Positions 5,220-57,466 of a stretch of DNA of 64,000 bases are shown here, one piece after another. The translations under genes were made by a program, and so were the position numbers. Positions within the stretch are counted from its first letter, which is position 1; each line of letters starts with the position of its first letter. The notes below the pieces were generated by a model, which had not been told where the DNA came from, ran no database searches, and saw only the letters and a list, made by a program, of their open reading frames with translations. Source of the stretch: Kribbella catacumbae DSM 19601 (GTDB taxonomy: Bacteria > Actinomycetota > Actinomycetes > Propionibacteriales > Kribbellaceae); the NCBI RefSeq assembly GCF_000372465.1, contig NZ_AQUZ01000002.1, forward strand, positions 186,160 through 250,159, read 5' to 3'.

Positions 5220-8200
5220 TCAGCTCTCCATTTCGTAGCCGGCGCCGTCGGCGGGCGCGGCTGGTTCAGGGTCGATCAGCGGCATGTAGGCCGGGGCCTG
5301 GCCACGGGCAGGCCGCGCAGCGACGGCCACTGCGACGGCATGTGTCGAGCGGCGGCGGTCGCCTCGTGCCTGTGCGGCGCCGTGCTCGTCGGTGACGACG
5401 TCGCGTTTGACGAGGGCGTCCGCGATGGTTTGCACGGTGGGTTCACTGTGCGACCCCGGGTCCGGGAGCAGGCCGTTGGCGGGCCGGCGGGATCGTCGGG
5501 TGGCCGCTGAGCAGAACTGTTCGTTCATCTCGCCGTCGAAAAGGTTCTCGTGCTTGCCGGCGGCGACGACCAGGTCCTCAAGGGTGCCGCCGTACGCCAT
5601 CCGATCCATCAACGAGCCTTGCAGCGACGCATCGTCTTCCAGGTTGCGTACGAGCCCGGTCTTCGGGTCGGTGAGCGCCTGGGCCACCCGGTCCACGTAG
5701 GCAGGGTTGACGGTGACGGCGAAGCCGTCCTTGGCCCGGTAGAAGTCAACGAACTGCTCCACCCACTGCTCAGGTGTCGCCTGGAGCGGGACACCGTCCT
5801 CGAACAGCGCCCGCCACTTGCCTGGCCCGAGGTGTTCCAGAACGCGCCCGCGCCACAGATCGCGCCCCGGTCCCTGCAGCATCTCGTACTTGTGCCGGGC
5901 CTCGGCGGCGTCATGCTTGGCCTGCAGGACGGACTGCGTCACCGGGTAGGTGACCTCGAGGACGGCTTTCATGTCCTCATTGCGCAGCGCGCGGACGGCG
6001 CGCTGGCTGTACGAGCCACCGAGACCGGTGCCGTGGGCCTTGATCGCGGTGGCGAACATCGAGGCCTCCTGGTCGGCCCGATTGATGCCGGAGCGGCCGC
6101 TGTGGCCGCCGAGGTATCGGGCGTAGTCGGTCAGCTTCTGGAGGTTGCCTTTGGCGCCGGTGGTGACGCAGACGTCGCGCACGCTGTTCAGGTGTGACTG
6201 CAGGTCGGCGAACGACAGCGCCGTGCCGAACTCGCCCCGCTGGGCCCTGCGGTAGAAGCCGCTCAACCGGACGGTCACGTCGTCCTGACGCGCACGGGTC
6301 GTCTCCGGAGCTTCATCGGCTGCGCCCCAGCGAATGAGGTTCGCCGCGCCACTCAGGCTGTCCAGCTGTTGGCGCAGCTCGGGGTCCTTCGAGAGCGCCA
6401 CCTGGGTGTCGAGGGAGACCTGCATGGCGAACGGGTGCGTGCCCTGCTCGCTCACGACACCGGTATCCAGGAGGTTCGCCGGCACCGACAGCTTCGCCAT
6501 TGCCTCGGCCTTCGCCGCCCGGCTGTGCAGTTTCACCACGGCGACGGCGTCGCCGTCGAAATCGCCGTCGAAGCACTGGTCCATCACCGGGTTGATGGCC
6601 ACGCCGGTGAGTCGCTGGTCGACCGCGACGCGCAGATAGCGCACGCCCGCGTCGCGCAGCACCGGGTCACGCCAGACGAGCGCGTGGTCACCCTCAATCA
6701 GGCCGAGCTGATCGGCCATGACCGGGCTGACAGCGATTTGGTCGACGTCGAGGCGGGGATCTGCGGTCCATACGGCGGTCGCGGAGTCGGCGAGCCGGCT
6801 CGACATGAGGCCGGTCTTGAAGATGTTGTGTTTCCCGCTGAAGACTCGCTGCTCGAGGTCGGTGGTGATGGCCTCGAAGTTGCGCTGGGCACGGGCGGCG
6901 GCCTGGCTCATGGCGTCGCCGAGTTCTTCGCGCTCGCCCTGGCCGAGGGACCCGGCGTTGAGTTTGTCTTGCAGCGCCCGGTAGCGGCAGGCCTGCTCGT
7001 GGATGTCGAGGTAGCGGTTGGTGTAGTCGTGGGTGACCACGCTGCCGTCGTCGAACTCCTGGCCCGAGCGCAGGTGCGAGGACAGCACCGGTACTTTCCA
7101 GGAGGTCCCGGAGGCCGCCTCGGTCTGTTCGCCGGTCAGGTAGCGCAGCGGGAACGGGATCTCGAGGTCGCCTCCCTTGTCGCCGATGAGCGCACCGAAA
7201 GATCGGCGCATCGCCACGACATGCAGCCCGCCGTTCGAGGTTCGCACCAGCTCAGGCATCGCGAACAGGCGCCGCTCGGGCTGCTCATCCACCAAGTCGT
7301 GGCCCGTCCCGCGGTCATTGCTGTCCCGGCCGATCACGTGCAGTGTCCCGTCTGCTGCCATGGCGAGCCCCACGCTGAGCATGTACTCGCGCAGGTTCGC
7401 CTCGGCACCGGCGTTGTGGCCGTAGAACTCCTGCATGATCGCCGGGCAGCCCTGCGCACCGAGCGCCCAAGCCAGCTGAGAAGAGGCCTTGCGGCCCTTG
7501 CCGGCCAGCACCGATTCGTCGTCGTAGATCTTCGTCTTCTCGTCGACGGCCATGTGGGTGACGATGAACCGCATGCTGCCCAGGCTCCCGGCCCGCACAC
7601 CACCGCCTGGCACCGTCAAATCTTTGGCCCCGGTGGCCATGAGCTCGCGCGCCGAACCCGCATTACGCCGTGAGATCAGCGAGAACGGGCTCATCACCAC
7701 GTGGAGGTCCGGGTTGGCGCGGAACCAGGCAACCTCTTGCTCGACGCGCTCCCGGCCGGCGTCTTCTGGGCGCATGCCGCGGTCGACGACCAGCGACACC
7801 ACGCCCTTGTTGCCGTGAAGATCCGACAGTTTGTCGCCGACGACCAGGTCGCGCAGCTCATTACCCGCGCCGCGGATCTGGTTGGCCTGCGCGAACTCGC
7901 GGCTGATCACGATCGGGTCGTCTGCCGTCCAGCCGCCGAACGTCATCATGGCGGTCCCGGTGGCCGACGTGATCTTCGATGACTGCATCAGCGTGGATGC
8001 GGTCATCTGCTGGCGGTCGAACGGGTCGTACCGGAGTGTTTCGAGCTCGGGGCGGTTCATCAGCGGGGCGCGCCCGCCGGACGTCGTCGCCGGGTCGCCG
8101 GGAATGATCCGTCCCTCAGGACTTACCGTCGCGTCTTCGGTGAGGTAGCGCACGATGCCCTGGTTGGTCGCACCTCCGGTCATGACCGGGTCGAAGTAAC

Positions 8201-44524: not shown

Positions 44525-44749
44525 CTAATCGATGAGGCGGGCGGTGTAGCCGGTGCTGGTGATTGCGTCGTGGATGGCGGATGGATTGATGCCCGTTGAG
44601 GCGATCTCGACGGTGGTGCGGCCGGTTCTTACGTCGGTGCTGGATGAGGTGACGCCGGCGACGTCCTCGACGGCGTCGTCGACGAGGAGTCCGCAGCTGG
44701 AGCAGTGCATTCCGGTGACTTCGAAGATCAGTTCAGCCATCACGGTCAC
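44525..44749 (-). CDS. copZ: HMA-domain copper chaperone, CopZ-like
   Basis: The 74-residue protein is a single heavy-metal-associated domain with the GMHCSSC copper-binding motif in the first loop (about residues 13-19) and the ferredoxin-like strand-helix pattern. The GTG at 44749 overlaps the stop of the SafE-like gene; an ATG at 44740 is the alternative. It would deliver Cu(I) to a P-type ATPase such as the CopB encoded 14 kb away. Confidence 0.85.
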   Translation of the reverse strand: MTVMAELIFEVTGMHCSSCGLLVDDAVEDVAGVTSSSTDVRTGRTTVEIASTGINPSAIHDAITSTGYTARLID

Positions 44750-45774
44750 GCCCCCTGAAAGGCGATGCGGCCGCCGTACATGCCCATTCCGCAGCTGTAG
44801 CTGAGGGTGCCCGGCTTCGGGGTCCCGAGGTCGATGGTGGCTTCGCCCGTCGGCTCCAGGACGAGTTGCTTGTCCAGGTCGGGGACGACGAACGATCGCA
44901 CGCAGCCGCCGGTCTTGTTGGTGGCGACAACCAGGGTGGTGGGGATCCCGGCCTTGGCTGTGACGATTTCGGGCAGGTATCCGTTACTGCGGGCCTGGAT
45001 GATGACGAGCTGGCGGCCGTCGGGCGCAGTACGGACAGCGTCTGCCGGTACTGTGCTCGCCGCCGCAGTGGTAGCGCCATCTGGCCACCAGCCGCCGAGC
45101 CGGATGCCGGAGGTCAGCGTCCAGAGCGCAACCGCGAGGATGACGACACCGGTAGCGATGCTGAGCCTGCCCTGCCACAGGCGTGCGGCGGAGCGCAGGA
45201 CGACGCCGATGACGGCGAAGAGTGGCCCGGTGCCCAGGATGAATCCCGCCATCACGGCCGCGCCTGCAACTGGTGAACCGGAGGTGATCGCCACGAGCTC
45301 CATGCTCAAGGTGACGCCGCAGGGGATGAGGATGGTGAGGAATCCCAGGATGGCAGGGGCGGTGGCGCTGCTGGATTTTGCGGATCTGCGGACGCGCTTG
45401 CCCCACGCTGCCGGGGGATGCGGGACGAGGCGACGTACGGCGGAAACTCCTAGCAGGTCCAGCGCGAAAAGCACCATCAGGACGGCTGCCGCTATCAGCA
45501 GCAATGCCTGTACTTGAGGACTTGGCTGGATCGCAGCGCCCACGATGCCGAGTGCTGCGCCCAGCAGACTATGGGAGATGAGCTTCGCGCCGAGGAAGGC
45601 GCCTACGGGAGCGAACGGGCCGACGTGCCGGTGGTTCTCGTCGGACAAAGCGTCGTGGCGGCGAGTGACAGCACTGGCAAGCAGACCGCCTTGGACTGCG
45701 GCGCAGGAGGCGCCACCCGCGAGGAGACCGGTGGTGAGGCCCGTGAGGAACAAGGTCATGGAACTAGCCATCAA
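44746..45774 (-). CDS. SafE/DsbD-like membrane protein with C-terminal cupredoxin-type metal domain
   Basis: The 342-residue protein has about six TM helices in the first 220 residues (GLLAGGASCAAVQGGLL; ILIPCGVTLSMELV), with a membrane Cys in the positions used by the TauE/SafE and DsbD families. The outer C-terminal domain ends in SYSCGMGMYGGRI, a Cys/Met cluster like the copper ligand loop of cupredoxins. It is followed by a CopZ gene, so it likely handles copper across the membrane. Confidence 0.8.
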   Translation of the reverse strand: MMASSMTLFLTGLTTGLLAGGASCAAVQGGLLASAVTRRHDALSDENHRHVGPFAPVGAFLGAKLISHSLLGAALGIVGAAIQPSPQVQALLLIAAAVLMVLFALDLLGVSAVRRLVPHPPAAWGKRVRRSAKSSSATAPAILGFLTILIPCGVTLSMELVAITSGSPVAGAAVMAGFILGTGPLFAVIGVVLRSAARLWQGRLSIATGVVILAVALWTLTSGIRLGGWWPDGATTAAASTVPADAVRTAPDGRQLVIIQARSNGYLPEIVTAKAGIPTTLVVATNKTGGCVRSFVVPDLDKQLVLEPTGEATIDLGTPKPGTLSYSCGMGMYGGRIAFQGA

Positions 45775-46367: not shown

Positions 46368-46796
46368 TCAGCTCACAGCGTTTGCGTCGGTGGCCGGGAC
46401 GAGTTCGGCGATAAGGGCGCGGACCCTGGAGTCGATCTCGTCACGGATCGGCCGGACGGCGTCGATGCCCTGGCCCGCTGGGTCGTCGAGTTTCCAGTCG
46501 AGGTACCGCTTGCCGGGGAAGTAGGGGCATTCGTCGCCGCAGCCCATGGTGATGACGACGTCGGAGGCTTTGACGGCGTCGTCGGTCAGTGGCTTGGGGA
46601 ACTCTTGGGAGATGTCGAGGCCGAGCTCTGCCATGGCTGCGACGACCGCTGGGTTGAGTTGGTCGGCGGGCTGGGAGCCGGCTGACCGTACGACGACGCG
46701 TCCGGCGGCGTGGTGGTCGAGCAGGGCAGCGGCCATTTGGGAGCGGCCGGCGTTATGGATGCAGACGAACAAGACCTCAGGCGTTGTCTCGGACAT
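46368..46796 (-). CDS. arsC: Arsenate reductase, LMW-phosphatase-like
   Basis: The 142-residue enzyme reduces arsenate to arsenite. It has the phosphatase P-loop VCIHNAGRSQ with nucleophile C12, plus C86 and C90 (MGCGDECPY) that relay the electrons, and the DDPAG segment. The arrangement suits a thioredoxin- or mycothiol-dependent enzyme. It is the last gene of an arsR-arsC-ACR3-arsC operon. Confidence 0.93.
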   Translation of the reverse strand: MSETTPEVLFVCIHNAGRSQMAAALLDHHAAGRVVVRSAGSQPADQLNPAVVAAMAELGLDISQEFPKPLTDDAVKASDVVITMGCGDECPYFPGKRYLDWKLDDPAGQGIDAVRPIRDEIDSRVRALIAELVPATDANAVS

Positions 46797-46824: not shown

Positions 46825-47904
46825 TCAGTTGACGGTGTCGGGGTAGAAGCGGCGCTTGGCCCACAGGGACACGTAGACCAGGGCGACCAGGACGGGAACC
46901 TCGATCAGTGGACCGACGACGCCGGCGAGGGCTTGGCCGGAGGTGACGCCGAAGGTGCCGATGGCAACGGCGATGGCGAGCTCGAAGTTGTTGCCCGCTG
47001 CGGTGAACGCGAGGGTTGCGGTCTTCGCGTAGCCGAGGCGCAGTTGGTGGCCGAGGGCAAACGAGCCTCCGAACATGATCACGAAGTAGGCCAGCAGTGG
47101 CAATGCGATCCGTACGACGTCGAGTGGTGCGCTGGTGATCGCGTCGCCTTGCAGTGCGAACAGCATGACGATGGTGAACAGCAGTCCGTACAGGGCGACC
47201 GGCCCGACCTTGGGCAGGAACCGTGACTCGTACCAGTCGCGGCCGCGCGTCTTCTCGCCGATCGTGCGCGTCAGGTAGCCGGCCAGCAGCGGAATGCCGA
47301 GGAACACCAGCACGCTCAGCGCGATGGCGCCGATCGAGAACTCCGCACTGGTGGTCTCCAGCCCCAGCCAGCCGGGCAGGGTTTGCAGGTAGAACCAGCC
47401 GAGTCCGGCGAAGGCGATGATCTGGAAGACGGAGTTGATGGCGACCAGTACGGCGGCCGCTTCGCGGTCTCCGCAGGACAGGTCGTTCCAGATCAGCACC
47501 ATGGCAATGCATCTCGCCAGCCCCACGATGATCAGGCCGGTGCGGTATTCCGGCAGATCGGGCAGCAGCAGCCAGGCGAGCGCGAACATCAGTGCCGGGC
47601 CGAGCACCCAGTTCAGCACCAGGGAGGCGATCAGGAGTTTGCGGTCGCCGGTCACGCGACTGGTTTCGGTGTAACGGACCTTGGCCAGCACCGGGTACAT
47701 CATCAGCAGCAGCCCGATCGCTATCGGCAGACTCACCGAACCGACCTTCACCGCGTCGAGCGCGTCGTCCAGACCGGGGATGATCCGGCCGAGGAGCAAC
47801 CCGAGCGCCATGGCGGCAATGATCCAGACCGCCAGGTAGCGGTCGAGGAAGGACAGCTTCGCGACGACGGCGCTGTCGGTGGGCGTGGTGGCAGTGTCGG
47901 TCAC
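46825..47904 (-). CDS. acr3: Arsenite exporter ACR3
   Basis: The 359-residue protein has ten TM helices of the BASS/ACR3 fold and the signature LARCIAMVLIWNDLSCGD, whose Cys binds arsenite. Other ACR3-type parts are LGPALMFALAWLLLPD and FTAAGNNFELAIAVAIG. The GTG at 47904 overlaps the stop of the preceding arsC gene (GTGA), so the longer frame upstream is rejected. It exports the product of the two reductases. Confidence 0.93.
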   Translation of the reverse strand: MTDTATTPTDSAVVAKLSFLDRYLAVWIIAAMALGLLLGRIIPGLDDALDAVKVGSVSLPIAIGLLLMMYPVLAKVRYTETSRVTGDRKLLIASLVLNWVLGPALMFALAWLLLPDLPEYRTGLIIVGLARCIAMVLIWNDLSCGDREAAAVLVAINSVFQIIAFAGLGWFYLQTLPGWLGLETTSAEFSIGAIALSVLVFLGIPLLAGYLTRTIGEKTRGRDWYESRFLPKVGPVALYGLLFTIVMLFALQGDAITSAPLDVVRIALPLLAYFVIMFGGSFALGHQLRLGYAKTATLAFTAAGNNFELAIAVAIGTFGVTSGQALAGVVGPLIEVPVLVALVYVSLWAKRRFYPDTVN

Positions 47905-48563
47905 GCGGTGACTCCCGGCTTCTGGTCGACGAGTTCGGCGAGCAGGGTCTGGACGCGGGTGTCGATGTCGTCGCGGATCCGCCGTATCGCAGCGGGGCTC
48001 TGTCCGGCGGGGTCGTCGATTGCCCAGTCGTAGTACCGCTTTCCTGGCAGGACCGGGCATGCGTCGCCGCAGCCCATCGTGACCACGACGTCGGCGGCGC
48101 GGACGACGTCGTCGGTCAGCGGCTTGGGGTAGGCCTGGTGAAGGTCGAGACCGAGCTCAGCCAGCGCGGCGGCGACCGGCGTCTCGATGTCTGCGGCGGG
48201 GTGAGACCCTGCCGACCGGACAGTCACAGCACCGGCAGCGTGGTGCGCCAGTAGAGCGGCAGCCATCTGGGAGCGCCCCGCGTTCGCGACACACAGGAAC
48301 AGCACCTGCGGGACGGGGCTGGCGATCGCGCCCTTGGCGTGGGCCAGCGCCGCGAGCCGGTCGCTGGCAAAGTGTTCGGCCAGCGCCGAAAGGTGTCGGT
48401 GGACTCTGGCGGTGCGGTAGAGCGCGACGTAGGACTCGTGGACGACCCGGTCGACAGTCTCGGGACTGAAGATGCCGGTGTACTTGTCGGCGAGCCGCTC
48501 AGCGGCCCGACCGAGCACCATGTCGGTGTCGAGCAGTGCGAGTTCCTCAGCAGATGTGGGCAT
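47901..48563 (-). CDS. arsC: Arsenate reductase with N-terminal three-helix domain
   Basis: Residues 1-75 form a helical domain (TDMVLGRAAERLADKYTG; VDRVVHESYVALYR) of the kind fused to mycothiol-dependent ArsC proteins in Corynebacterium and relatives. Residues 84-220 are the reductase, with P-loop LCVANAGRSQ (C91), MGCGDACP and DDPAG. With the second arsC downstream, the cluster carries two reductases that may use different reductants. Confidence 0.9.
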   Translation of the reverse strand: MPTSAEELALLDTDMVLGRAAERLADKYTGIFSPETVDRVVHESYVALYRTARVHRHLSALAEHFASDRLAALAHAKGAIASPVPQVLFLCVANAGRSQMAAALLAHHAAGAVTVRSAGSHPAADIETPVAAALAELGLDLHQAYPKPLTDDVVRAADVVVTMGCGDACPVLPGKRYYDWAIDDPAGQSPAAIRRIRDDIDTRVQTLLAELVDQKPGVTA

Positions 48564-48622: not shown

Positions 48623-48988
48623 TTAGCGGGCCAGCGCGGTGGTCTCAGGTACGGACAGCAGGGTGGAGATCCACTGCTGACGCTCCGGCAGCGGCCAGTA
48701 GTAGACCCACGTGCCGCGGCGCTCGCAGTCGACGAGCCCGGCCTCACGCAGTACCCGCAGGTGGTGAGAGATCGTCGGGCCCGACACGTTGAAGTGCGGG
48801 GTGATGTCGCAGACGCAGACCTCGGCGCCGGCCGAGGCGATGATCGACATCAGGCGCAGCCGGATCGGGTCCGACAGCGCCTTGAAGACCGCCGCACCCT
48901 CGGTCGCCGTGGCCTCGTCGAGAGCCGCGACTGAGATCGGCGTACAGCAGCCACCGCTGCGGCTGGTGGAGACGTCTTGTTTCGACAT
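48623..48988 (-). CDS. arsR: ArsR repressor
   Basis: The 121-residue winged-helix protein has the arsenic-sensing CVCD at the start of the recognition region (EVCVCDITPHFNVSGPTISH) and an extra GGCCTP pair in the N-terminus that could complete a three-thiolate As(III) site. It leads the operon to arsC, acr3 and arsC. An inverted repeat lies directly upstream, so it should autoregulate and may also control the divergent plus-strand operon. Confidence 0.92.
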   Translation of the reverse strand: MSKQDVSTSRSGGCCTPISVAALDEATATEGAAVFKALSDPIRLRLMSIIASAGAEVCVCDITPHFNVSGPTISHHLRVLREAGLVDCERRGTWVYYWPLPERQQWISTLLSVPETTALAR

Positions 48989-49100: not shown

Positions 49101-49247
49101 ATGGTGAAGCTCATTCGGCGGCTCAGCCGTCGCGGGAGCGTGGAGTTCTGCGAGTCGTGCAGCGAGGTCTGTACCGCTGCGTGCCGCTCGCGAGCTCACC
49201 GCGACCGGATCCGCGCCAGCCACACCTACATCCAGTTCCCCCACTGA
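49101..49247 (+). CDS. 48-aa Cys-containing protein of the ars cluster
   Basis: GAGAGGGG precedes an ATG at 49101. The product starts MVKLIRRLSRRGSVEFCESC and continues SEVCTAACR, giving four Cys in a CxxCxxxCxxxC pattern, then a basic helix. Coding is supported by the ribosome binding site, the start placement and the Cys pattern. It may be a small metal-binding protein. It opens the plus-strand operon with the CCG-rich protein, divergent from arsR. Confidence 0.6.
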   Translation: MVKLIRRLSRRGSVEFCESCSEVCTAACRSRAHRDRIRASHTYIQFPH

Positions 49248-49271
49248 CCGCCCGACGCGAAGGACACGATC

Positions 49272-49499
49272 ATGGCTACCGAGACCACCCCCACGCCCGT
49301 CGGCGGCTTCGCCGGTGACCCGGCGCAAGCGTTCACACCCCCTTCGGCGGGCAGCTGCTGTGGAAGTTCCCCGACCGGGCAGGCCGCTGCCGAGTCCACC
49401 GGCGGCTGCTGCGGTACCGACACCGCGGTCGCTGCCGGCTCGTGCTGCGGATCCGAGCCGGCCACGGACAAGACGGCCTCTGGCGGGTGCTGCGGATGA
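49272..49499 (+). CDS. CCG-repeat Cys-rich small protein
   Basis: The 75-residue protein has four CCG motifs (SCCGS, GCCGT, SCCGS, GCCG at the C-terminus), eight Cys in all, in a Ser/Thr/Ala-rich, otherwise disordered chain. Vicinal Cys pairs bind As(III) tightly, so it may be an arsenic-sequestering peptide. The stop overlaps the ATG of the M28 gene (ATGA). The same GGCCG motif occurs in the tail of the flavoprotein encoded two genes on. Confidence 0.8.
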   Translation: MATETTPTPVGGFAGDPAQAFTPPSAGSCCGSSPTGQAAAESTGGCCGTDTAVAAGSCCGSEPATDKTASGGCCG

Positions 49500-50708
49500 G
49501 CACCGCGTCGCCCAGGCCGCTTGCGGCTGAGGCCGCCGCTGCCCGTGGCGGCGCTTCGGCCGAGGCCATGCTGGCCACGGTCCACGAACTCGCCTCCGAC
49601 CACTACTCGGGCCGCCGGATCGGTACGCCGGGCGGCCAAGCCGCCGCGCTGTGGCTCGCCGAACAACTGCGCAGCCTGGGCGCCGCAGTCACCCTCGACA
49701 GCTTCGAGGCAAGTGGCGTGAAGGAACTGCAGGCAACGCCCACACTGACCGTCGGGCACCGGCAACTCGTCCATCGGCGCGACTTCGCTGAGCATCTCAG
49801 CTCTGCCGAAGTGACGGAACCGAGGTCAGGTCCGCTCTCGTCGGCCGACGCCGATTCGTGGCGCGGTGGCTGGATCGCTGTGACGGCGGCTGACGTGGAA
49901 ACGGTGGCCAGAGCCGAGGCCGAGCAGGCCGCCGGCTTGCTGGTACGGCGCGGTGTCGACGAGGCGGGTTGGATGCCGAAGATGATCGCCGGTCCGCCGA
50001 TGGGCCAGGTTGCGATCTTGTCGGTGCGCACCGAATTGCATGCCGAATTGGCCGGCAGCGCTGGTGCGATGGTGACGGCGTCAGCGCCGATGCGTACTGT
50101 CACCACGACCGGGACCAACGTGTGCGGCGTATTCGGTGAACCGCTGCCGGGCGGTGTTGCTGACGGCGCATTTCGATGGGGTGGGTGACGACCCGCTGCT
50201 GCGGCATCCTGCGGCGGGGGACAACGCCTCGGGCGTGGCTGTCGTTCTTGAAGCCGCTCGGTTGCTCTCGCCTCGCCTGTCGGGTGGCGTCGGGCTGGCG
50301 GTCGCGCTGCTCGACGGTGAAGAGGTCGGTGCCCGCGGTTCGGCGCATCACGCACCGCAGGTGGCTTCCGGCACGTACGTGATCAACGTCGACGGCGCAG
50401 CGCAGCTCGGTGCTGCTGCCGCGGTCGAGGCGGGTGGACCGGCTGAGCCTTTACTGGCTGCCGTTGACCAGGCAGGCCGTCTGACCGGTGTACCGCTGCA
50501 AGCCGGTGCGATGGCCTCGGACAACCGCCGCTACGCAGCCGTCGGCTTGCCCGCGATCGGTATCGGCATGGGAATGCCCGGTTATCAAACGACCGCCGAG
50601 ACCCCCGACCGGGTCGAAGGGCGCACCCTCCTCGCCGCGACAGATCTCGTCACGGCGACCGTGAATCAACTCGTCAAAAACTCTGCACAGCTTGGAGAAA
50701 CACCATGA
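49496..50708 (+). pseudogene. M28-family metallopeptidase, frameshifted
   Basis: The first frame (49496-50188) has the N-terminal part (MLATVHELASDHYSGRRIG, then GGQAAALWLAEQLRSLGA), typical of M28 aminopeptidases with a PA-like insert. It stops at 50188. The second frame, from about 50140 to 50708, carries the catalytic part: LLTAHFDG, GDNASGVAVVLEAARLL and LDGEEVGARGS, the Zn ligands and catalytic Glu. The two join near 50145-50160 after a 1-nt deletion or 2-nt insertion around CCGGGCGGTG. It is either a real disruption or a sequencing error. Overlaps at both ends keep it in the operon. Confidence 0.75.
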
Positions 50709-52114
50709 GCGTCACAGCTTCCGACCTTCCGGTCGTGGTCATCGGTGCGGGCCCGATCGGCCTGGCCGCTGCCGCGCACCTGGCCGAACGCGGCCTCGAC
50801 TTCGTCGTCCTCGAGTCCGGCCCGAGCGTCGCCGCCGCGATCGACGAATGGCGGCACGTGAAGCTGTTCAGTCCGTGGCGCTACGACATCGACAGTGCCG
50901 CCCGCCGGCTCCTCGAGCAAGCCGGTGGTTGGACCGAACCGAACCCCGGCACCCTGCCTACCGGCGGCGACCTGATCGACTCCTACCTCGCGCCGCTGGT
51001 CAAGACTCCGCAGCTGAGCGACAAGATCCGCTACAACTCGCCGGTCGAGGCGGTGACCCGGGTCGGGTTCGACCGGATCCGCACCGCAGGTCGCGAAGAC
51101 GCGCCATTCCTCGTCCGCCTGGCGGACGGCTCCGAGCTGCTCGCCGCGGCCGTGGTCGACGCGGCCGGCACTTGGCGGCGCCCCAACGTGCTCGGCGGTT
51201 CGGGCATCCCGGCCCGCGGGGAGGCCGCTGCTGCGGCTCACATCTCCCGCGCGCTGCCCGACGTGCTGGGGCGTGACCGCGAGCGGTTCGCAGGCCGTCG
51301 TACGGCGGTCGTCGGGGCCGGTCACTCGGCCGCGACCACGCTGTTGGATCTCGGTGAGCTGGCCGAGCAGGTCCCGGGTACGGAGATCGTGTGGGTGGTG
51401 CGTGGTGCGGACCAGGCTCGCACGTACGGCGGTGGTGACGCCGACGAACTGCCTGCCCGCGGGGCCCTCGGCTCCCGTGTGCACGACCTCGTTCAGGCCG
51501 GCCGGGTCGAGCTCGTCAGCAGCTTCCGGATCGAGGCCATCGAACAGGCCGGTGATGGCCGCGTCGAGCTGGTCGCCGGTGAGCGGCGCGTCCTCGCGGA
51601 CACAGTCGTGAACTCGACCGGGTTCCGCCCCGACCACGATGTCGTCGGCGAGCTGCGCCTGGACCTCGACCCGGTCCTCGGATCCACCCGCGCACTCGCA
51701 CCACTGATCGACCCCAACCAGCATTCTTGCGGAACAGTCCCTCCGCACGGTGTCGACGAGCTCGCGCACCCCGAGCCGGGCTACTACGCCGTGGGCGCGA
51801 AGTCCTACGGCCGTGCGCCGACGTTCCTGCTGGCCACGGGCTACGAGCAGGCCCGCTCCGTGGTCGCCGGCCTGGCCGGCGACTGGGACGCGGCCCGCGA
51901 CGTACAGCTCGACCTGCCAGAGACTGGCGTCTGCTCCTCCAACCTTGCCGACAGCTCGTCCAGCGACGATGCCGCCGGAGGATGCTGCGGCCCGGCACCT
52001 CAGGTAGTCGCGCTCTCCGCCCCGGCGGGCCGTGGTCTCGCTACCGGTATCGCCGGTGGCCTGCTCACCGTCATCGACACCAAGCCCGCCACCGACTCGG
52101 GCTGCTGCAGTTGA
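50705..52114 (+). CDS. Flavoprotein oxidoreductase with CCG tail, ars-linked
   Basis: The 469-residue protein has an N-terminal FAD fold (VVVIGAGPIGLAAAAHLAERG), a central NAD(P) fold (TAVVGAGHSAATTLLDL) and the TGFRPD motif near 310, like flavin monooxygenases and thioredoxin-reductase-like ArsO/ArsT proteins. Unusually, residues 425-429 are GGCCG and the chain ends SGCCS, so the C-terminus carries vicinal Cys pairs like the CCG protein. Its ATG overlaps the M28 stop (ATGA) and its stop overlaps the TTG of the MFS gene (TTGA). Confidence 0.85.
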   Translation: MSVTASDLPVVVIGAGPIGLAAAAHLAERGLDFVVLESGPSVAAAIDEWRHVKLFSPWRYDIDSAARRLLEQAGGWTEPNPGTLPTGGDLIDSYLAPLVKTPQLSDKIRYNSPVEAVTRVGFDRIRTAGREDAPFLVRLADGSELLAAAVVDAAGTWRRPNVLGGSGIPARGEAAAAAHISRALPDVLGRDRERFAGRRTAVVGAGHSAATTLLDLGELAEQVPGTEIVWVVRGADQARTYGGGDADELPARGALGSRVHDLVQAGRVELVSSFRIEAIEQAGDGRVELVAGERRVLADTVVNSTGFRPDHDVVGELRLDLDPVLGSTRALAPLIDPNQHSCGTVPPHGVDELAHPEPGYYAVGAKSYGRAPTFLLATGYEQARSVVAGLAGDWDAARDVQLDLPETGVCSSNLADSSSSDDAAGGCCGPAPQVVALSAPAGRGLATGIAGGLLTVIDTKPATDSGCCS

Positions 52115-53346
52115 TCGAACCCGCTACGGCCGTCACCTCCAGCCCGGCCAGGGCAGGGGGTGGAGGCCGTTCCGGTGTGCCACGCCGCCTGGTCGCAGCG
52201 CTGGCCGTGACGCAGACAGTCGGGTACGGCGTCCTGTACTACGCGTTCAGCGCGCTGCTCGGCCCGATGAGCCGCGACCTGGGCATCTCCACCGCGACCG
52301 CGGCCGGCGCGCTCACCACCGCCGTACTCGTCACCGGGTTGATGTCGGTACCGGTCGGGCGGTGGCTCGATGCTCGCGGCGGTCACGCGCTGATGACGAC
52401 GGGTGCTTCGGTCGGCGCCGCCGCTGTCGTGGCCTGGTCGCAGGTGCAGACCGTGGCGCAGCTGTACGTCGTGTTCGCGGTCATCGGTGCCGCATCGGCG
52501 ACGGTGCTGTACGAACCGGCCTTCGCCGTCGTCATCGCGGTCACCGCGCCGGCATCCCGCACCCGTGCACTCCTAGGAATCACCCTGGTCGCCGGATTTG
52601 CCAGCTCGATCTTCATCCCGCTCGCCGGTCAGTTGCTCGAGGCCACCACTTGGCGCCGCACCTTGCTGATCCTCGCCGCCGGGTACGCGGCTCTCGCGAT
52701 CCCGTTGCACGCGGTCGCACTCCGCCGTACCGGCCCACGCCACCGCACTCCGGTTCCGAAGCGAACAAGAGCCTCAGCGCTGCGTGACACCGGATTCTGG
52801 TTACTCGCGGCCGGGTTCGTGTTGCACTCCGCAGCGCTCGCCACCATTGCCGTGCACCTCGTGCTCTACCTGATCAGCCTCGGCCACCCGCCTGCGGTCG
52901 CCGCAACGCTGGCCGGGCTACTCGGTCTGTTGTCGGTGACGGGCCGGATCGTGACGAGCTTGTCACTGTGTTGGTTGCCGATGGCCACCATTGCCGGGAT
53001 CGTGCTCGTCGTCCAAGGCGCCGCGATTTCGCTGCTGCCGTTCACCGGCAAGCACCTGGCCGGCGCAATCGCTTGTCTGGTCCTGTTCGGGCTCGGCTTC
53101 GGCGTCGCCTCGATCGCCACCCCAGCGATCCTGCTCGACCGCTACGGCTCCCACGGCTACGCCACCACCGCAGGAACCCTGGCCACCCCCGTCATCATCG
53201 CCAAAGCCTGCGCACCGCTCGTCGGCGCCGTCCTGGCGGGCGTCGCCGGATACCGCCCCGTCATCCTCACCGTCGCCGCCGCTTGTATCGCAGCAGGCCT
53301 GTTCATCGCGGCATCTCGACGCGTACCGTCGCCGAACCGTGCCTAG
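52111..53346 (+). CDS. MFS transporter of the ars cluster
   Basis: The 411-residue protein has 12 predicted TM helices with a motif-A-like loop GRWLDARGGH between TM2 and TM3. The TTG at 52111 overlaps the previous stop, which supports this start. As the last gene of the CCG-protein/M28/flavoprotein operon it may export an organoarsenical or a thiol-arsenic conjugate. The 3' end overlaps the convergent flavoprotein gene by 4 bp. Confidence 0.8.
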   Translation: MIEPATAVTSSPARAGGGGRSGVPRRLVAALAVTQTVGYGVLYYAFSALLGPMSRDLGISTATAAGALTTAVLVTGLMSVPVGRWLDARGGHALMTTGASVGAAAVVAWSQVQTVAQLYVVFAVIGAASATVLYEPAFAVVIAVTAPASRTRALLGITLVAGFASSIFIPLAGQLLEATTWRRTLLILAAGYAALAIPLHAVALRRTGPRHRTPVPKRTRASALRDTGFWLLAAGFVLHSAALATIAVHLVLYLISLGHPPAVAATLAGLLGLLSVTGRIVTSLSLCWLPMATIAGIVLVVQGAAISLLPFTGKHLAGAIACLVLFGLGFGVASIATPAILLDRYGSHGYATTAGTLATPVIIAKACAPLVGAVLAGVAGYRPVILTVAAACIAAGLFIAASRRVPSPNRA

Positions 53347-54404
53347 CCGCGCCGCAACTGTCGCGCCAAAGCACGCATGACGAATCGGGCATCGCGATGT
53401 ACCCCGCGCAACGTGTTCGACGAGAACGACCGCTGGAACTCCACCCCCAGGTAAGCCAGCCGGGGATGCGTCGTCGACATCCCGCGCCGGTGCAACGGCA
53501 ATCCGTCCGCGGTCAGCGCGCCCAGATCGCGCAGGTACGGAAGGTGCGGGCGGTAGCCGGTCGCGAACAGAACCGCGTCGACCGGTTTATGCTCACCGCC
53601 GGGCCACACGACCCCGTCGGCGTCGTACGCGGTGAACATGTCACTCCGCGGCAGCTCACCGGACTCGATCGCAGCCTGGTAGATCCCGGTATCCAGCACC
53701 GGCGTACCGCTGAACAACCGCGCCAGCACTGCCGGTGGGAGCAGGTCGAGCCTCAGCCAGTCCAGCCAGAAGTGGATGTCGCGTCCGCCACGAACCTGCG
53801 GCAGGAATTGCACCGGAGCCCTGGTCGCCAGCGTCACATCCGCCACGGCCGCAAGCTCGTAGGCGACCTGAACCGCGGAGTTGCCGCCACCGACCACCAC
53901 GACCCGCCTGCCTTCGTATGGCTGCGCCGATCGGTAATCCGCCACGTGCAGCGCTTCACCGCCGAACGACTCCTGACCTGGGATCACCGGCACCAGTGGG
54001 TTGCCGAACGAGCCCGACGCGGCAATCACAGCCGCCGCCTGCACGGTCTCACCACCGGCCAGGTGTACGTCGAGTCCGTCGCGGGACTGCGTGACGCCGG
54101 CAACCGTCGTACCGGTCCGAATCTCTGCATCCAGGCTCGCGCCGCACTTGTCCAGATGCTCCGCGACCTCATCGCGCACCGGATACCGATCCGGATCGCC
54201 ACCAATCGGCATCCCCGGGAAGCCGCTGAAGCGAGCAGGTGAGAACAACGTCAACGAGTCGTAGTACAACGGCCACGACCCGACCGTGCGCTCACCCGCC
54301 TCCAGCACCAACGGCCGCAACCCGGCGTCCAACGCCGCCCGAGCCCCAGCTAGGCCCGACTGCCCGGCGCCCACGATCACCACTGATTCAGAGGTAAGAG
54401 ACAT
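53343..54404 (-). CDS. arsO: Flavin-dependent monooxygenase, ArsO/CzcO-like
   Basis: The 353-residue protein has VVIVGAGQSGLAGARAALDAG for FAD, VVVVGGGNSAVQVAYEL for NADPH and LFATGYRPHLPYL near the C-terminus, the arrangement of the ArsO/CzcO group. It would oxidise an arsenical or similar compound. It is divergent from an ArsR gene across a palindrome, so it is likely repressed by that ArsR. The symbol is assigned by resemblance and context. Confidence 0.8.
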   Translation of the reverse strand: MSLTSESVVIVGAGQSGLAGARAALDAGLRPLVLEAGERTVGSWPLYYDSLTLFSPARFSGFPGMPIGGDPDRYPVRDEVAEHLDKCGASLDAEIRTGTTVAGVTQSRDGLDVHLAGGETVQAAAVIAASGSFGNPLVPVIPGQESFGGEALHVADYRSAQPYEGRRVVVVGGGNSAVQVAYELAAVADVTLATRAPVQFLPQVRGGRDIHFWLDWLRLDLLPPAVLARLFSGTPVLDTGIYQAAIESGELPRSDMFTAYDADGVVWPGGEHKPVDAVLFATGYRPHLPYLRDLGALTADGLPLHRRGMSTTHPRLAYLGVEFQRSFSSNTLRGVHRDARFVMRALARQLRRG

Positions 54405-54483: not shown

Positions 54484-54819
54484 ATGGCTGCACGCAGCAA
54501 AAGTGAAGCGCAGTCCTGTGCTGCGACCGAGCCAGTCGAGCTGGCTGCCGCGACTCACGACTTCCTCAAGGCGCTGGCCAGCCCCACCCGGCAACGCATC
54601 ATGCTGCTGTTCGCCCGCGGCGCCGAACTTTCGGTCAATGAAGTCGCCGAGCATGCCGGCGTCAGTCAGTCGGCAGCCTCTCAGCAACTCGACCTCCTCC
54701 GCCGCGGAGGAATCGTCACCTCCCGGCGCGACGGCAAGGCTGTCCTGTATCGCGCAGACAAGCAAGGAAGTGCTGCAGCGCTAGCGGACCTCCAGGCCTA
54801 TCTCCAGAGCTGCTGCTGA
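54484..54819 (+). CDS. ArsR/SmtB-family repressor
   Basis: The 111-residue winged-helix protein (FLKALASPTRQRIMLLFARG; VSQSAASQQLDLLRRGGI) has an N-terminal Cys (AQSCAAT) and a C-terminal SCC, which could form an As(III) site different from that of the other ArsR. GGGAGGAG precedes the ATG. It lies divergent from the ArsO-like gene. Confidence 0.88.
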   Translation: MAARSKSEAQSCAATEPVELAAATHDFLKALASPTRQRIMLLFARGAELSVNEVAEHAGVSQSAASQQLDLLRRGGIVTSRRDGKAVLYRADKQGSAAALADLQAYLQSCC

Positions 54820-55010: not shown

Positions 55011-55040
55011 TCGGCCTGACGCGCGAGCGTGTCAGGCCGA
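55011..55040. terminator. Hairpin between the two ArsR-family genes
   Basis: TCGGCCTGAC (55011-55020) and GTCAGGCCGA (55031-55040) form a perfect 10-bp stem over a 10-nt loop, overlapping the stop of the 120-residue ArsR gene. No T-run follows, so termination strength is uncertain. Confidence 0.5.
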
Positions 55041-55394
55041 TTGTGCCGCTGAATCGCTGCCTGCTTCGGGTAGGTCGCGGTCGAGGTGGTCGGCGTGGAA
55101 CAGTGCCTGGTCGAGCAGACCCTTCACGTGATCGTCGGCGGCCGAGTAGTACACGAAAGTGCCTTCCCGGCGGCCTTTCACCAGGCCGGCCAGGCGAAGC
55201 TTGGCCAGGTGTTGACTCACCGCGGCCGGGGCGGCGCCGGCGAGCTCGGCCAGGCACGCTACCGACGACTCGCCCTGCAGTAGCGCCCATAGCACCTTGA
55301 TCCGGGTCGGGTCGGCCATTAGCCGGAACGACTCAGCGGCCAGGTGGACCTGCTCTTCGTTCGGCATCTCGAAGTTCTCGATCGACGAGTGCAT
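55032..55394 (-). CDS. ArsR-family metal sensor with CzrA/SmtB-type alpha-5 site
   Basis: The 120-residue winged-helix protein has no Cys at the sensing helix used by ArsR apart from one in VACL. Near the C-terminus it has DDHVKGLLDQALFHADH, which fits D-x-H-x10-H-x2-H exactly, the alpha-5 site of CzrA, SmtB and NmtR for Zn, Co or Ni. It is divergent from the P1B-4 ATPase gene and should repress it. Confidence 0.85.
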   Translation of the reverse strand: MHSSIENFEMPNEEQVHLAAESFRLMADPTRIKVLWALLQGESSVACLAELAGAAPAAVSQHLAKLRLAGLVKGRREGTFVYYSAADDHVKGLLDQALFHADHLDRDLPEAGSDSAAQSA

Positions 55395-55423
55395 CCGCCC
55401 ATACTACGACCCATCCGCTTACT

Positions 55424-55435
55424 TGCGTATATGCA
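55424..55435. promoter_or_regulatory. Dyad in the divergent promoter of the P1B-4 ATPase
   Basis: TGCGTATATGCA is a near-perfect palindrome in the 59-bp gap between the repressor and the ATPase gene. ArsR/SmtB operators often contain TATAT dyads of this kind. Confidence 0.45.
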
Positions 55436-55453
55436 TGTGTGCGCAGGTAGCAT

Positions 55454-57466
55454 GTGCAGGTGACCCTAGACATCAGAGCCGCAGCGGTCGGCGGCGAGAC
55501 CTCGGTTTCAGCTCGGACAGCGATCGGGGGCGGTTGGTGGCGCAGCGCCTGGACGCTGCCCGAGGTGCGCTGGGCGAGCGCCGCGACGGTCTTGTTCCTG
55601 GCCGGGCTGGTCGTCGACCTGGCCGGCGGACCGACGTGGGTCTACTGGTCGCTGTTCTTGGCCTGCTACGTTGCGGGCGGTTGGGAACCGGGCTGGGCCG
55701 GGCTACAGGAGCTGCGGAACAGGCGACTCGACGTCGACCTGCTGATGGTCGCGGCAGCGATCGGCGCCGCGTCGATCGGGCAAATCCTGGACGGCGGTCT
55801 GCTGATCGTGATCTTCGCGACCTCCGGCGCGTTGGAGGCGGTCGCGACCAAACGCACCGAGGATTCCGTACGTGGACTGCTCAACATCGCACCCGACACC
55901 GCCACCCGCGTCGCAACCGCAGATGCCGTCGGGGCAGTGGAAGAGACCGTCCGGGTCGCCGACCTGGCCGTCGGCGACGTCGTGCTGGTGAGGCCAGGCG
56001 AGCGGATCGGTGCCGACGGGACCGTGCTCGAGGGTGCCAGCGAGGTCGACCAGGCCACCATCACCGGCGAGCCATTGCCGGTCGACAAAGCCAGCGGCGA
56101 CGAGGTGTTCGCCGGTACGCTCAACGGCACCGGCGCGCTGCGGATCCGGGTCGACCGCCCGGCCGCGGAGTCGGTGGTCGCCCGGATCGCCGGACTGGTC
56201 GAGGAAGCCGCCCGGACCAAGGCCAAGACACAGTTGTTCATCGAGAAGATCGAGCAGCGGTACTCGATCGGCATGATCACCGCGACCGTCGCCCTGTTCG
56301 TGAGCCCGCTGCTGTTCGGGCAACCGGTCACACCGACACTGCTGCGGGCAATGACGTTCATGATCGTCGCCTCACCCTGCGCCGTCGTCCTCGCAACCAT
56401 GCCGCCGCTCTTGGCCGCGATCGCCACCGCCGGCCGCCACGGCGTGCTGGTGAAGTCGGCGGTGGTCATGGAGCAACTCGGCGCGACCACGCAGGTCGCG
56501 ATCGACAAGACCGGGACCTTGACCCGCGGCACACCTCACCTCGCCGAGATCCGGCTCCTCGAGAACGTCCCGTTCACCCGCGACGAAGTGCTTGCGATCG
56601 CCGCCTCGGCCGAGCACCCCAGCGAGCATCCGCTCGCAGCCGCAGTCGTGTCAGCCGCCCGCGCAGCCGGACTCACCCTGACACCCGTCGAGGCGTTCAT
56701 TGCGGCCGCAGGCCTCGGCGTCACCGCCACGATCGACGGCCGGCAGGTACAGATCGGCGCCCCAGTGTCACTCCTGATCGGACGGGTCGGACAGGTTCAG
56801 GCGGCCCGCTCGACGGTCGCCGAGGTGCAAGGGGCAGGAGCGACCGCGGTCGTTGTCCTGATCGACGGCAAACCGATCGCAGTCCTCGGCATCGTCGACC
56901 AGCTCCGCCCCGAAGCGGCCGCAGCCGTCGAGCAACTGACCCAGCTGACAGGCAAGTCGCCGGTGCTGCTCACCGGCGACAACGCCACGACCGCCGCTCA
57001 GATCGCCGCAGCGGCAGGCATCACGAGCATCCATGCCGAACTGATGCCCGACGGCAAGGTCACCGCAGTCCGCGAACTCCAAGCTGCCGGCGAACGCGTC
57101 ATGGTCGTTGGCGACGGCATCAACGACGCGCCAGCCTTGGCCGCAGCGCACGTCGGCATCGCCCTGGGCGGTGCCGGATCCGACCTGACCCTGCAGACCG
57201 CCGACGCGGTCATCGTCCGCGACGACCTGAACGCCATCCCCGCTGTGATCGCGCTATCGCGCCGGGCACGCCGGGTCGTGACCGCGAATCTGGTCATCGC
57301 GGCAGGCTTCATCACCGTTCTGGTGATCTGGGACCTCGTCGGGCACCTGCCGCTGCCACTGGGCGTCGCCGGACACGAAGGCTCCACCGTCGTCGTCGGC
57401 CTCAATGGACTGCGGCTGCTCCGCGACGCCGCCTGGAACCAAGCGCGTGCCGCCAGTGAGCAATGA
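55454..57466 (+). CDS. P1B-4-type metal-transporting ATPase (Co/Zn/Fe class)
   Basis: The 670-residue pump has the TGE loop (204-206), SPC in the transport helix (307-309) instead of CPC, DKTGT with phosphorylated D351, GDGIND-type hinge (VVGDGINDAPAL), and HEGSTVVVGLNGLRLL in the last TM helix. SPC plus HEG(S/G)T defines class P1B-4 (CoaT, CtpD, CzcP). No N-terminal HMA domain is present, as usual for this class. The GTG start at 55454 has weak support; a GTG at 55460 is close. The CzrA-like repressor is divergent. Confidence 0.92.
   Translation: MQVTLDIRAAAVGGETSVSARTAIGGGWWRSAWTLPEVRWASAATVLFLAGLVVDLAGGPTWVYWSLFLACYVAGGWEPGWAGLQELRNRRLDVDLLMVAAAIGAASIGQILDGGLLIVIFATSGALEAVATKRTEDSVRGLLNIAPDTATRVATADAVGAVEETVRVADLAVGDVVLVRPGERIGADGTVLEGASEVDQATITGEPLPVDKASGDEVFAGTLNGTGALRIRVDRPAAESVVARIAGLVEEAARTKAKTQLFIEKIEQRYSIGMITATVALFVSPLLFGQPVTPTLLRAMTFMIVASPCAVVLATMPPLLAAIATAGRHGVLVKSAVVMEQLGATTQVAIDKTGTLTRGTPHLAEIRLLENVPFTRDEVLAIAASAEHPSEHPLAAAVVSAARAAGLTLTPVEAFIAAAGLGVTATIDGRQVQIGAPVSLLIGRVGQVQAARSTVAEVQGAGATAVVVLIDGKPIAVLGIVDQLRPEAAAAVEQLTQLTGKSPVLLTGDNATTAAQIAAAAGITSIHAELMPDGKVTAVRELQAAGERVMVVGDGINDAPALAAAHVGIALGGAGSDLTLQTADAVIVRDDLNAIPAVIALSRRARRVVTANLVIAAGFITVLVIWDLVGHLPLPLGVAGHEGSTVVVGLNGLRLLRDAAWNQARAASEQ

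Follow-up and report, generated by a model that had tools for sequence, protein, structure and literature searches.

Bacterial arsenic operons are already well catalogued. Among their products is ArsD, an arsenite metallochaperone and a small arsenite-binding protein (PMC6205960, of which excerpts are drawn on here). ArsV oxidises organic arsenicals and ArsK is an efflux transporter (excerpts of PMC9144182 and PMC11719878); BsnM and BsnN of bisenarsan synthesis in S. lividans have EPSP-synthase (5-enolpyruvylshikimate-3-phosphate synthase) and phosphoglycerate-mutase (iPGAM) functions, respectively (excerpts of PMC12159101). The operon that is the subject of this account lies at positions 49101-53346 of a 64,000-nucleotide stretch (the window) of the 9.6 Mb genome of Kribbella catacumbae DSM 19601, where it runs divergently from an ArsR-ArsC-Acr3-ArsC unit, from its 48-residue-protein gene to its major facilitator superfamily (MFS) gene. 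As judged by gene content and distribution, it is made of two modules: a widespread one consisting of an ArsR, a flavoprotein and an ArsK-like pump, and a rarer pair consisting of a short peptide with repeated CCG motifs and an M28 peptidase. The CCG peptide is most likely a thiol carrier of trivalent arsenic that would be processed by its own peptidase. Carriers of the pair are soil actinobacteria, usually with the pair inside clusters of arsenic-resistance genes. The operon and the repressor gene that faces it are made up as follows.

48623 to 48988, minus strand: ArsR repressor, divergent to the operon, with an N-terminal CC pair (residues 14-15); NF033788, 88 bits against a cut-off of 55.
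49101 to 49247, plus strand: small basic 48-residue protein, first gene of the operon; no Pfam or NCBIfam match, homologs similarly placed.
49272 to 49499, plus strand: CCG peptide, 75 residues, with GGFxGD near the N-terminus, four CC pairs and a GGCCG end; from the family alignment.
49496 to 50708, plus strand: M28 peptidase, partner of the CCG peptide, in a broken frame (49496-50188 and 50136-50708); PF04389, E 2.6e-21, C-terminal half only.
50705 to 52114, plus strand: FAD/NAD(P)H flavoprotein, 469 residues, probably of ArsV type, with a disordered CC-rich tail that ends in SGCCS; PF13738.
52111 to 53346, plus strand: ArsK-like MFS exporter, 411 residues; NF033733, 184.5 bits, below the cut-off of 400; PF07690.

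A first-pass annotation of this DNA took these genes for one linear pathway, in which the CCG protein binds As(III), the peptidase and the flavoprotein act on the complex and the pump exports it. Much of its gene description is sound: the protein with four CCG-type motifs (CC at residues 29, 46, 58 and 73), the MFS pump gene, the 4-base overlaps from the CCG gene onward (ATGA at 49496, ATGA at 50705 and TTGA at 52111) and the GGCC of ArsR (residues 12-15, in a protein whose ArsR/SmtB helix-turn-helix scores above the NCBIfam cut-off) are all there. The single pathway does not survive, for reasons that lie in the distribution of the genes.

The peptide gene stands immediately upstream of the peptidase gene in 78 of 81 loci, that is, in 55 of the 58 of a first set and in all 23 of a later set; L211, in which the peptide frame is lost past the third CC pair, is counted as peptide-bearing among the 55. 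Two of the three unpaired loci (L131 and L217) hold peptidase remnants, and at the third (L214) the peptidase is missing its catalytic D and EE residues. (The L214 region, 7253-9770 in genome G925, is worth recording in its own right: it holds a family peptidase without catalytic residues near ars genes, no CCG peptide is present, and the genome has no flavoprotein match.) Searching with the peptidase only was chosen to avoid the bias of loci that had been fetched by their flavoprotein. Peptidase-profile matches were found in 6 of 38 Kribbella genomes, in 3 of 394 genomes of the class (the window genome included, with 4 candidates scored per genome), in 8 of 120 Streptosporangiaceae (the family of Nonomuraea) and in 38 of 200 Micromonosporaceae (the family of Rhizocola, L060); these samples overlap and some of the genomes were already known through the flavoprotein. 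An order-wide search yielded matches in 34 of 345 genomes, of which 8 were already covered and three with fragments only (G1175, G1186 and G1272) stand outside the count; its remaining 23 loci are the later set just referred to. Few candidates were scored per genome in the order-wide and Streptosporangiaceae searches and in the Micromonosporaceae searches, for peptidase and flavoprotein alike. In a plasmid collection the only record with a peptidase match was an 11.9 Mb replicon of Nonomuraea.

The converse test points the same way. Among the 38 Kribbella genomes, strong peptide matches fall in exactly the six that have the peptidase (random-placement p 3.6e-7, ignoring kinship); one extra weak match, in G428 (E 0.001), is taken as noise. 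A phylum-wide peptide search, in which at most 14 candidates were scored per genome and in which misses are accordingly weak evidence, gave matches in 10 of 396 genomes at E 0.01, with strong ones only in the window genome (next best E 7.6e-5).

The pair also co-varies. Over the 39 loci in which peptide, peptidase and flavoprotein were all available (53, 42 and 55 having been found), peptide distances correlate with peptidase distances after removal of the flavoprotein (partial r 0.51, 0 of 2000 permutations), and with flavoprotein distances only slightly after removal of the peptidase (partial r 0.14, 132 of 2000 permutations). Permuting loci removes kinship only partly, and the contrast between peptidase and flavoprotein is internal to the same 39 loci. 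On these distances the peptide changes in step with its peptidase and scarcely with the flavoprotein. At the fifth metal-ligand position the peptidase has Gln in the clade of the window copy and His in the other clade, and here too peptide and peptidase match: peptides come in two types that differ in the segment before the first CC pair, and 26 peptidases with Q go with the xP-type and 23 with H go with the other, without exception in the 49 of 55 loci that could be scored. (The types were sorted by eye with both columns visible; of the six loci left aside, four have no readable residue and two, L127 and L130, have peptides that belong to neither type.) Both peptide types occur inside the Micromonosporaceae sample. 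The Q/H split may be one old event, and it therefore backs co-inheritance more than it provides 49 independent cases.

The other module is distributed quite differently. The flavoprotein is present in 38 of 38 Kribbella genomes, against the peptidase in 6 of 38, which rules out an obligate five-gene pathway; it is also present in 152 of 200 Micromonosporaceae genomes. In that family it is found in 36 of the 38 genomes with the peptidase against 116 of the 162 without (Fisher p 0.0011, kinship not removed). Flavoprotein and pump are far commoner without the peptide and peptidase than with them. That the peptide hardly follows the flavoprotein in sequence, and that the pair can also stand apart from ars genes (L134, L136 and L200) or in another kind of cluster (L127 and L130, discussed below), speaks further against the linear pathway of the first-pass annotation.

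What is the CCG peptide? An alignment of 22 peptides, picked from the collected loci by a pattern that asks for GGFxG and three or more CC, has 14 invariant columns, more than chance would give, including GGF near the N-terminus and three CCG motifs. Four CC pairs are present in 21 of these peptides, every one of the 22 terminates in CCG, and each of their genes overlaps the next start as TGCGG[A/G]TGA. The wider set of 55 peptides encoded upstream of a peptidase has four CC pairs in 50 cases and three in 5, with CC followed by at most one residue at the C-terminus in 53 (CCG in 43). The peptide matches no Pfam or NCBIfam family at E 0.01, those of ArsD and metallothionein included, and has no match to the Pfam cysteine-rich CCG domain of HdrB type; short low-complexity proteins can escape such libraries. 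It resembles ArsD in being a small protein of ars operons, with the distinction that arsenite binding is established for ArsD and presumed for the CCG peptide; it also differs in its lack of a Pfam match, its disordered-looking repeats and its partner, a peptidase rather than the ArsA ATPase.

A leader-like GGF segment followed by repeated CC cores might suggest a precursor of ribosomally synthesized and post-translationally modified peptides (RiPPs), and L127 and L130 also carry ATP-grasp proteins; no RiPP-modifying enzyme was recognised among the ten window proteins scanned against Pfam and NCBIfam. One could also imagine a ribosomal counterpart of the phytochelatins, in which the M28 enzyme matures the CCG protein to short CC(G) peptides whose As(III) complexes leave through the MFS pump. 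Of the alternatives, this one comes nearest to the idea of the first-pass annotation. The leader-like GGFxGD segment ahead of the cores, a peptidase regularly encoded beside the peptide and, in the window, an exporter within the same operon all agree with it. Against it, an MFS gene was found at no more than 39 of 58 loci, flavoprotein and MFS genes often occur where the peptide is absent (in plasmid records too), and M28 enzymes mostly trim the N-terminus instead of cutting between cores. We consider it doubtful, and export of a peptide complex by the MFS pump has no support in the data.

The peptidase itself is a recognisable M28 enzyme. The model of the K. albertanoniae homolog matches YwaD/BSAP (6hc6) with Z 34.9, root-mean-square deviation (rmsd) 3.5 and 363 aligned residues, so that the CCG-linked enzymes share with these M28 aminopeptidases both the Pfam family and the whole-chain fold; they differ from them in having His or Gln as fifth ligand, according to clade, and in the position of their gene behind that of a CCG peptide. 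The metal and catalytic motif patterns are largely retained in the 58 loci, remnants included (H-D in 51, the first D in 53, EE in 53, the second D in 56). No signal peptide was seen on inspection by eye.

In the window, M28 sequence is certainly present, as the first-pass annotation had said; that it does not form one open frame escaped that annotation. The frame that opens at 49496 stops at 50186-50188, and the catalytic half, to which the Pfam M28 match is limited, lies in another frame (50136-50708). Uninterrupted homologs are found in K. albertanoniae (L009) and as a paralog on contig C94 of the window genome itself. On that contig two further ars genes align to the window query in pieces that lie in different frames, which keeps a sequencing error in play as the source of the window break; decayed gene and sequencing error appear indistinguishable at this level. 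Comparison with K. albertanoniae gives ratios of nonsynonymous to synonymous substitution rates (dN/dS) of 0.26 for the N-terminal and 0.07 for the C-terminal part of the peptidase, 0.11 for the flavoprotein and for the pump, and 0.20 for the CCG peptide. The low values for the peptidase parts would speak for past selection only and leave the choice between decay and error where it was. The window copy may be inactive through its broken frame; the C94 copy is uninterrupted.

The flavoprotein-pump module is already of known kind. A scan of genome contigs confirmed at least 470 relatives of the flavoprotein, and among the best 80, which were kept, a match to the window ArsR is found near 76, an MFS match near 59 and a match to the C-terminal part of the peptidase near 24. 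A plasmid collection contributed 122 records with a flavoprotein homolog, 121 of them below 60% identity, from Pseudomonadota and Bacillota among others. In Ensifer adhaerens E-60 and Rhizobium rhizogenes, ArsR and the flavoprotein are followed by a pump annotated by NCBI as ArsK, again with genes overlapping by 4 bases, an arrangement that the window shares; in Streptomyces sp. FR-008 a flavoprotein-MFS pair lies beside arsenic genes. We take arsV to have been described next to arsK, and it is on that presumed adjacency that the window pair is called ArsV/ArsK-like here. Likeness to ArsV is by gene order and descriptions rather than by alignment to a characterised ArsV, and the pump is ArsK-like at most, since it falls below the equivalog cut-off of what is nevertheless the best of its 6 families. 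The window flavoprotein and pump are probably of the ArsV/ArsK kind, with identity and activity as ArsV presumed. An alternative assignment of the flavoprotein (50705-52114) as ArsO was rejected (NF040505, 56.2 bits against a cut-off of 425).

As the first-pass annotation had noticed, the flavoprotein ends with the motif of the peptide. In the window protein CC is found at residues 427 and 467; among 39 aligned relatives 35 have CC within the last five residues and 27 have at least two CC pairs, and nine of nine alphaproteobacterial flavoproteins that were inspected have at least two in the tail. Scored against a profile of the peptide, 22 of 50 tails exceed all 50 of their own cysteine-preserving shuffles (52 tails were at hand, two of at most 20 residues being excluded; five fetched relatives off the tail pattern were inspected separately). 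The structural model of the window protein has a mean pLDDT (predicted local distance difference test) of 72.9, with the tail (residues 407-469) of low confidence (pLDDT below 50). A flexible C-terminal tail with vicinal cysteines on a pyridine-nucleotide flavoenzyme is also familiar from mercuric reductase and high-Mr thioredoxin reductase. Unlike these, the window flavoprotein is nearest in fold to Bdr/YpdA, bacillithiol disulfide reductase (Z 26.7, rmsd 3.1, 305 aligned residues), and most of its relatives have the multiple CC pairs just described. Separately, we note that some flavoproteins, L042, L044 and L063 among them, have CC at the N-terminus too (MSDSCCG..., MSDGCCG...), 8 of the 39 aligned with CC in the first 20 residues.

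A disulfide reductase fold invites the thought that the peptide is a redox partner, a dithiol/disulfide shuttle that the flavoprotein reduces and that might, for example, donate electrons to ArsC, with arsenic binding incidental. The presence of an ArsC-type gene in 44 of 58 loci fits such a role. The co-variation, which ties the peptide to the peptidase and barely to the flavoprotein, does not, nor does the occurrence of the flavoprotein without the peptide in most genomes; we regard a redox shuttle as quite unlikely.

The genomic setting ties the pair to arsenic in two ways. Within the stretch fetched for each of the 58 peptidase-found loci (4 to 22 kb), the peptide is found in 55, ArsR-family genes in 51, ArsC-type genes in 44, the flavoprotein in 43, an MFS gene in 39 and Acr3-type genes in 18, so that the gene set does recur in other genomes, as the first-pass annotation had proposed. 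At least one ars-type neighbour is present in 52 of the 58, or in 49 when the flavoprotein, ArsC and Acr3 only are counted. Of the six loci without such a neighbour, one is a remnant (L217), one runs into a contig end (L190) and one carries bsn-type genes (L130); the others are L134 and L136 (both Kribbella) and L200. These last three would suit the notion that the pair has nothing to do with arsenic and is merely often carried in metal islands; their genomes all hold the flavoprotein elsewhere, and the 52 loci with ars-type neighbours, together with the second context to be described, make that notion very unlikely.

The second context is provided by L127 and L130, whose peptidases are divergent (37-39% identical). 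Their clusters carry homologs of EPSP synthase and of phosphoglycerate mutase (iPGAM), the functions of BsnM and BsnN, and it is by function rather than by comparison with bsn sequences that they are likened to the bsn cluster. Beyond those two functions they add the CCG-M28 pair, three ATP-grasp proteins, a FemAB/GNAT-like protein, a CMD-fold protein and a short acidic cysteine-rich peptide with alike N-termini in the two loci (MADDMIGSGCC... and MDDDMAGMGCC...). Four proteins in each cluster end in CC: the CMD-fold protein, two of the three ATP-grasp proteins and the FemAB/GNAT-like protein (the likeness of the two FemAB-like proteins was judged by eye, and Pfam was run on that of L127 only). 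L127 adjoins ArsR matches, an MFS match and, just outside the stretch, the flavoprotein; no flavoprotein match was found in G859, the genome of L130. The two clusters may be undescribed organoarsenical clusters. Their bsnM/bsnN-type setting makes a second link of the pair to arsenic, and it places terminal CC tags on several unlike proteins. Both regions, L127 (G814:C47, 2724-14883) and L130 (G859:C68, 4546-15634), also contain ABC transporter genes, as seen by eye.

A census found CC at the C-terminus of 99 of 1599 open reading frames (ORFs, selected with a home-made rule on GC), as compared with 87 of 31,980 internal windows. The former figure is inflated by the flavoprotein, with which most of the loci had been fetched; the CCG peptides and, in L130, the FemAB-like ORF escaped the rule. 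These tags bear on a further alternative, a metallothionein-like sponge: the peptide would buffer arsenic or another soft metal and the peptidase would recycle it, without any transfer. Eight cysteines in four pairs, with linkers between them that vary in length, would make a reasonable sponge, and the flavoprotein was not found in 15 of the 58 loci (some of them short stretches). A sponge leaves the same terminal CC tags on the flavoprotein and on the other L127 and L130 proteins unexplained, and the peptide has no Pfam family; the proposal is unlikely.

At the level of sequence, then, the peptide and peptidase are paired and co-vary, the peptide and the flavoprotein have the CC tag in common, and the pair is linked to ars and to bsnM/bsnN-type genes. 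The explanation that we tentatively prefer, while stopping short of calling it probable, is that an arsenic module of known kind has been joined to a peptide carrier with its own peptidase. In the known-kind module ArsR would sense arsenic, the ArsV-type flavoprotein would oxidise, or otherwise process by redox chemistry, trivalent arsenicals at the expense of NAD(P)H, and the ArsK-type MFS pump would export the product. The ribosomally made peptide would bind trivalent arsenic through its four vicinal CC pairs and pass it by thiol exchange to proteins that share the CC tag, with the flavoprotein tail as receiver. The cytosolic M28 metallopeptidase, guided by the conserved GGFxGD segment, would then trim or destroy the loaded or oxidised peptide and so free the arsenic for Acr3 or the MFS pump. 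Vicinal cysteines are good ligands of As(III), as in the sites of ArsD and ArsR, and ArsD too has cysteine pairs. A bolder version, which we offer as speculative and rather unlikely, has a GGF-tagged scaffold peptide that holds trivalent arsenic at CC docking sites, passes it by thiol exchange to any enzyme with a terminal CC and is unloaded by a dedicated M28 enzyme, serving organoarsenical synthesis (in L127 and L130) as well as detoxification. LysW-type and PEARL scaffold peptides, which carry other building blocks, offer an analogy.

A number of observations weigh against joining the carrier to the known module in this way. The flavoprotein-pump module occurs without the pair in most genomes, which marks the pair as dispensable. 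Broken pairs turn up repeatedly: in the window, L215, L216 and L218 the peptide is kept and the peptidase lies in pieces, and in L211 it is the peptide that runs out of frame. Neither of two Bacillota flavoproteins inspected has tail CC pairs; tails match the peptide profile weakly, with 18.3 bits as the best score, and of the 50 tails 28 fail to beat all of their shuffles. Six of the 58 loci lack an ars-type neighbour in the fetched stretch. As for the enzyme, M28 peptidases are mostly N-terminal exopeptidases, a habit that fits trimming better than precise release, and Gln as fifth ligand in one clade might mean weak or different M28 activity. The metal specificity of the CCG peptide is presumed.

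The remaining arsenic-related genes around the operon are the following.

46368 to 46796, minus strand: ArsC-type arsenate reductase of the divergent arsenic unit; an ORF with homologs in related loci, named from sequence by eye.
46825 to 47904, minus strand: Acr3-type arsenite carrier; likewise an ORF with homologs in related loci, named from sequence by eye.
47901 to 48563, minus strand: arsenate reductase-like protein of low-molecular-weight phosphatase fold, with an N-terminal helical domain; PF01451 and PF21234.
53343 to 54404, minus strand: ArsO-like flavin monooxygenase, convergent neighbour; NF040505, 215 bits, below the cut-off of 425.
54484 to 54819, plus strand: second ArsR-family regulator, with the C-terminus LQSCC; NF033788, 77 bits, cut-off 55.

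Relatives of the second ArsR-family regulator end in FCC, YCC or HCC in six other loci. Farther out, a protein with a heavy-metal-associated domain (MHCSSC motif) and a membrane protein with a C-terminal cupredoxin-like stretch are encoded on the minus strand at 44525-45774, and an ArsR-family gene lies divergent to a P-type ATPase-like ORF at 55032-57466 (all by eye). The small basic protein that opens the operon (49101-49247) found no match in the Pfam or NCBIfam libraries. The first-pass annotation had made it a small Cys4 metal protein, a name that must be dropped: 18 of 25 matches (down to E 0.06, some of them weak, counted by eye over the matched part only) have just two cysteines, so that four are not a family trait. 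Proteins of this family, with 2-4 cysteines, are elsewhere often encoded by the first gene, upstream of flavoprotein or peptide genes.

Searches aimed at a peptide-peptidase pair in arsenic operons, made in a collection of open-licence papers from which most subscription journals are absent, listed no description of one. A paper on the ars genes of Rhodococcus (PMC6514093) describes other ars genes, and the portions of it that were available do not contain the word "peptidase". If the reading given here is true, a small peptide and the peptidase devoted to it would offer cells a novel means of holding a toxic metalloid and letting it go again. Terminal CC, which recurs as a tag, would provide a testable rule for recognising arsenic-handling proteins, and from the pair in bsnM/bsnN-type clusters one might learn how free arsenic is dealt with while organoarsenicals are made.

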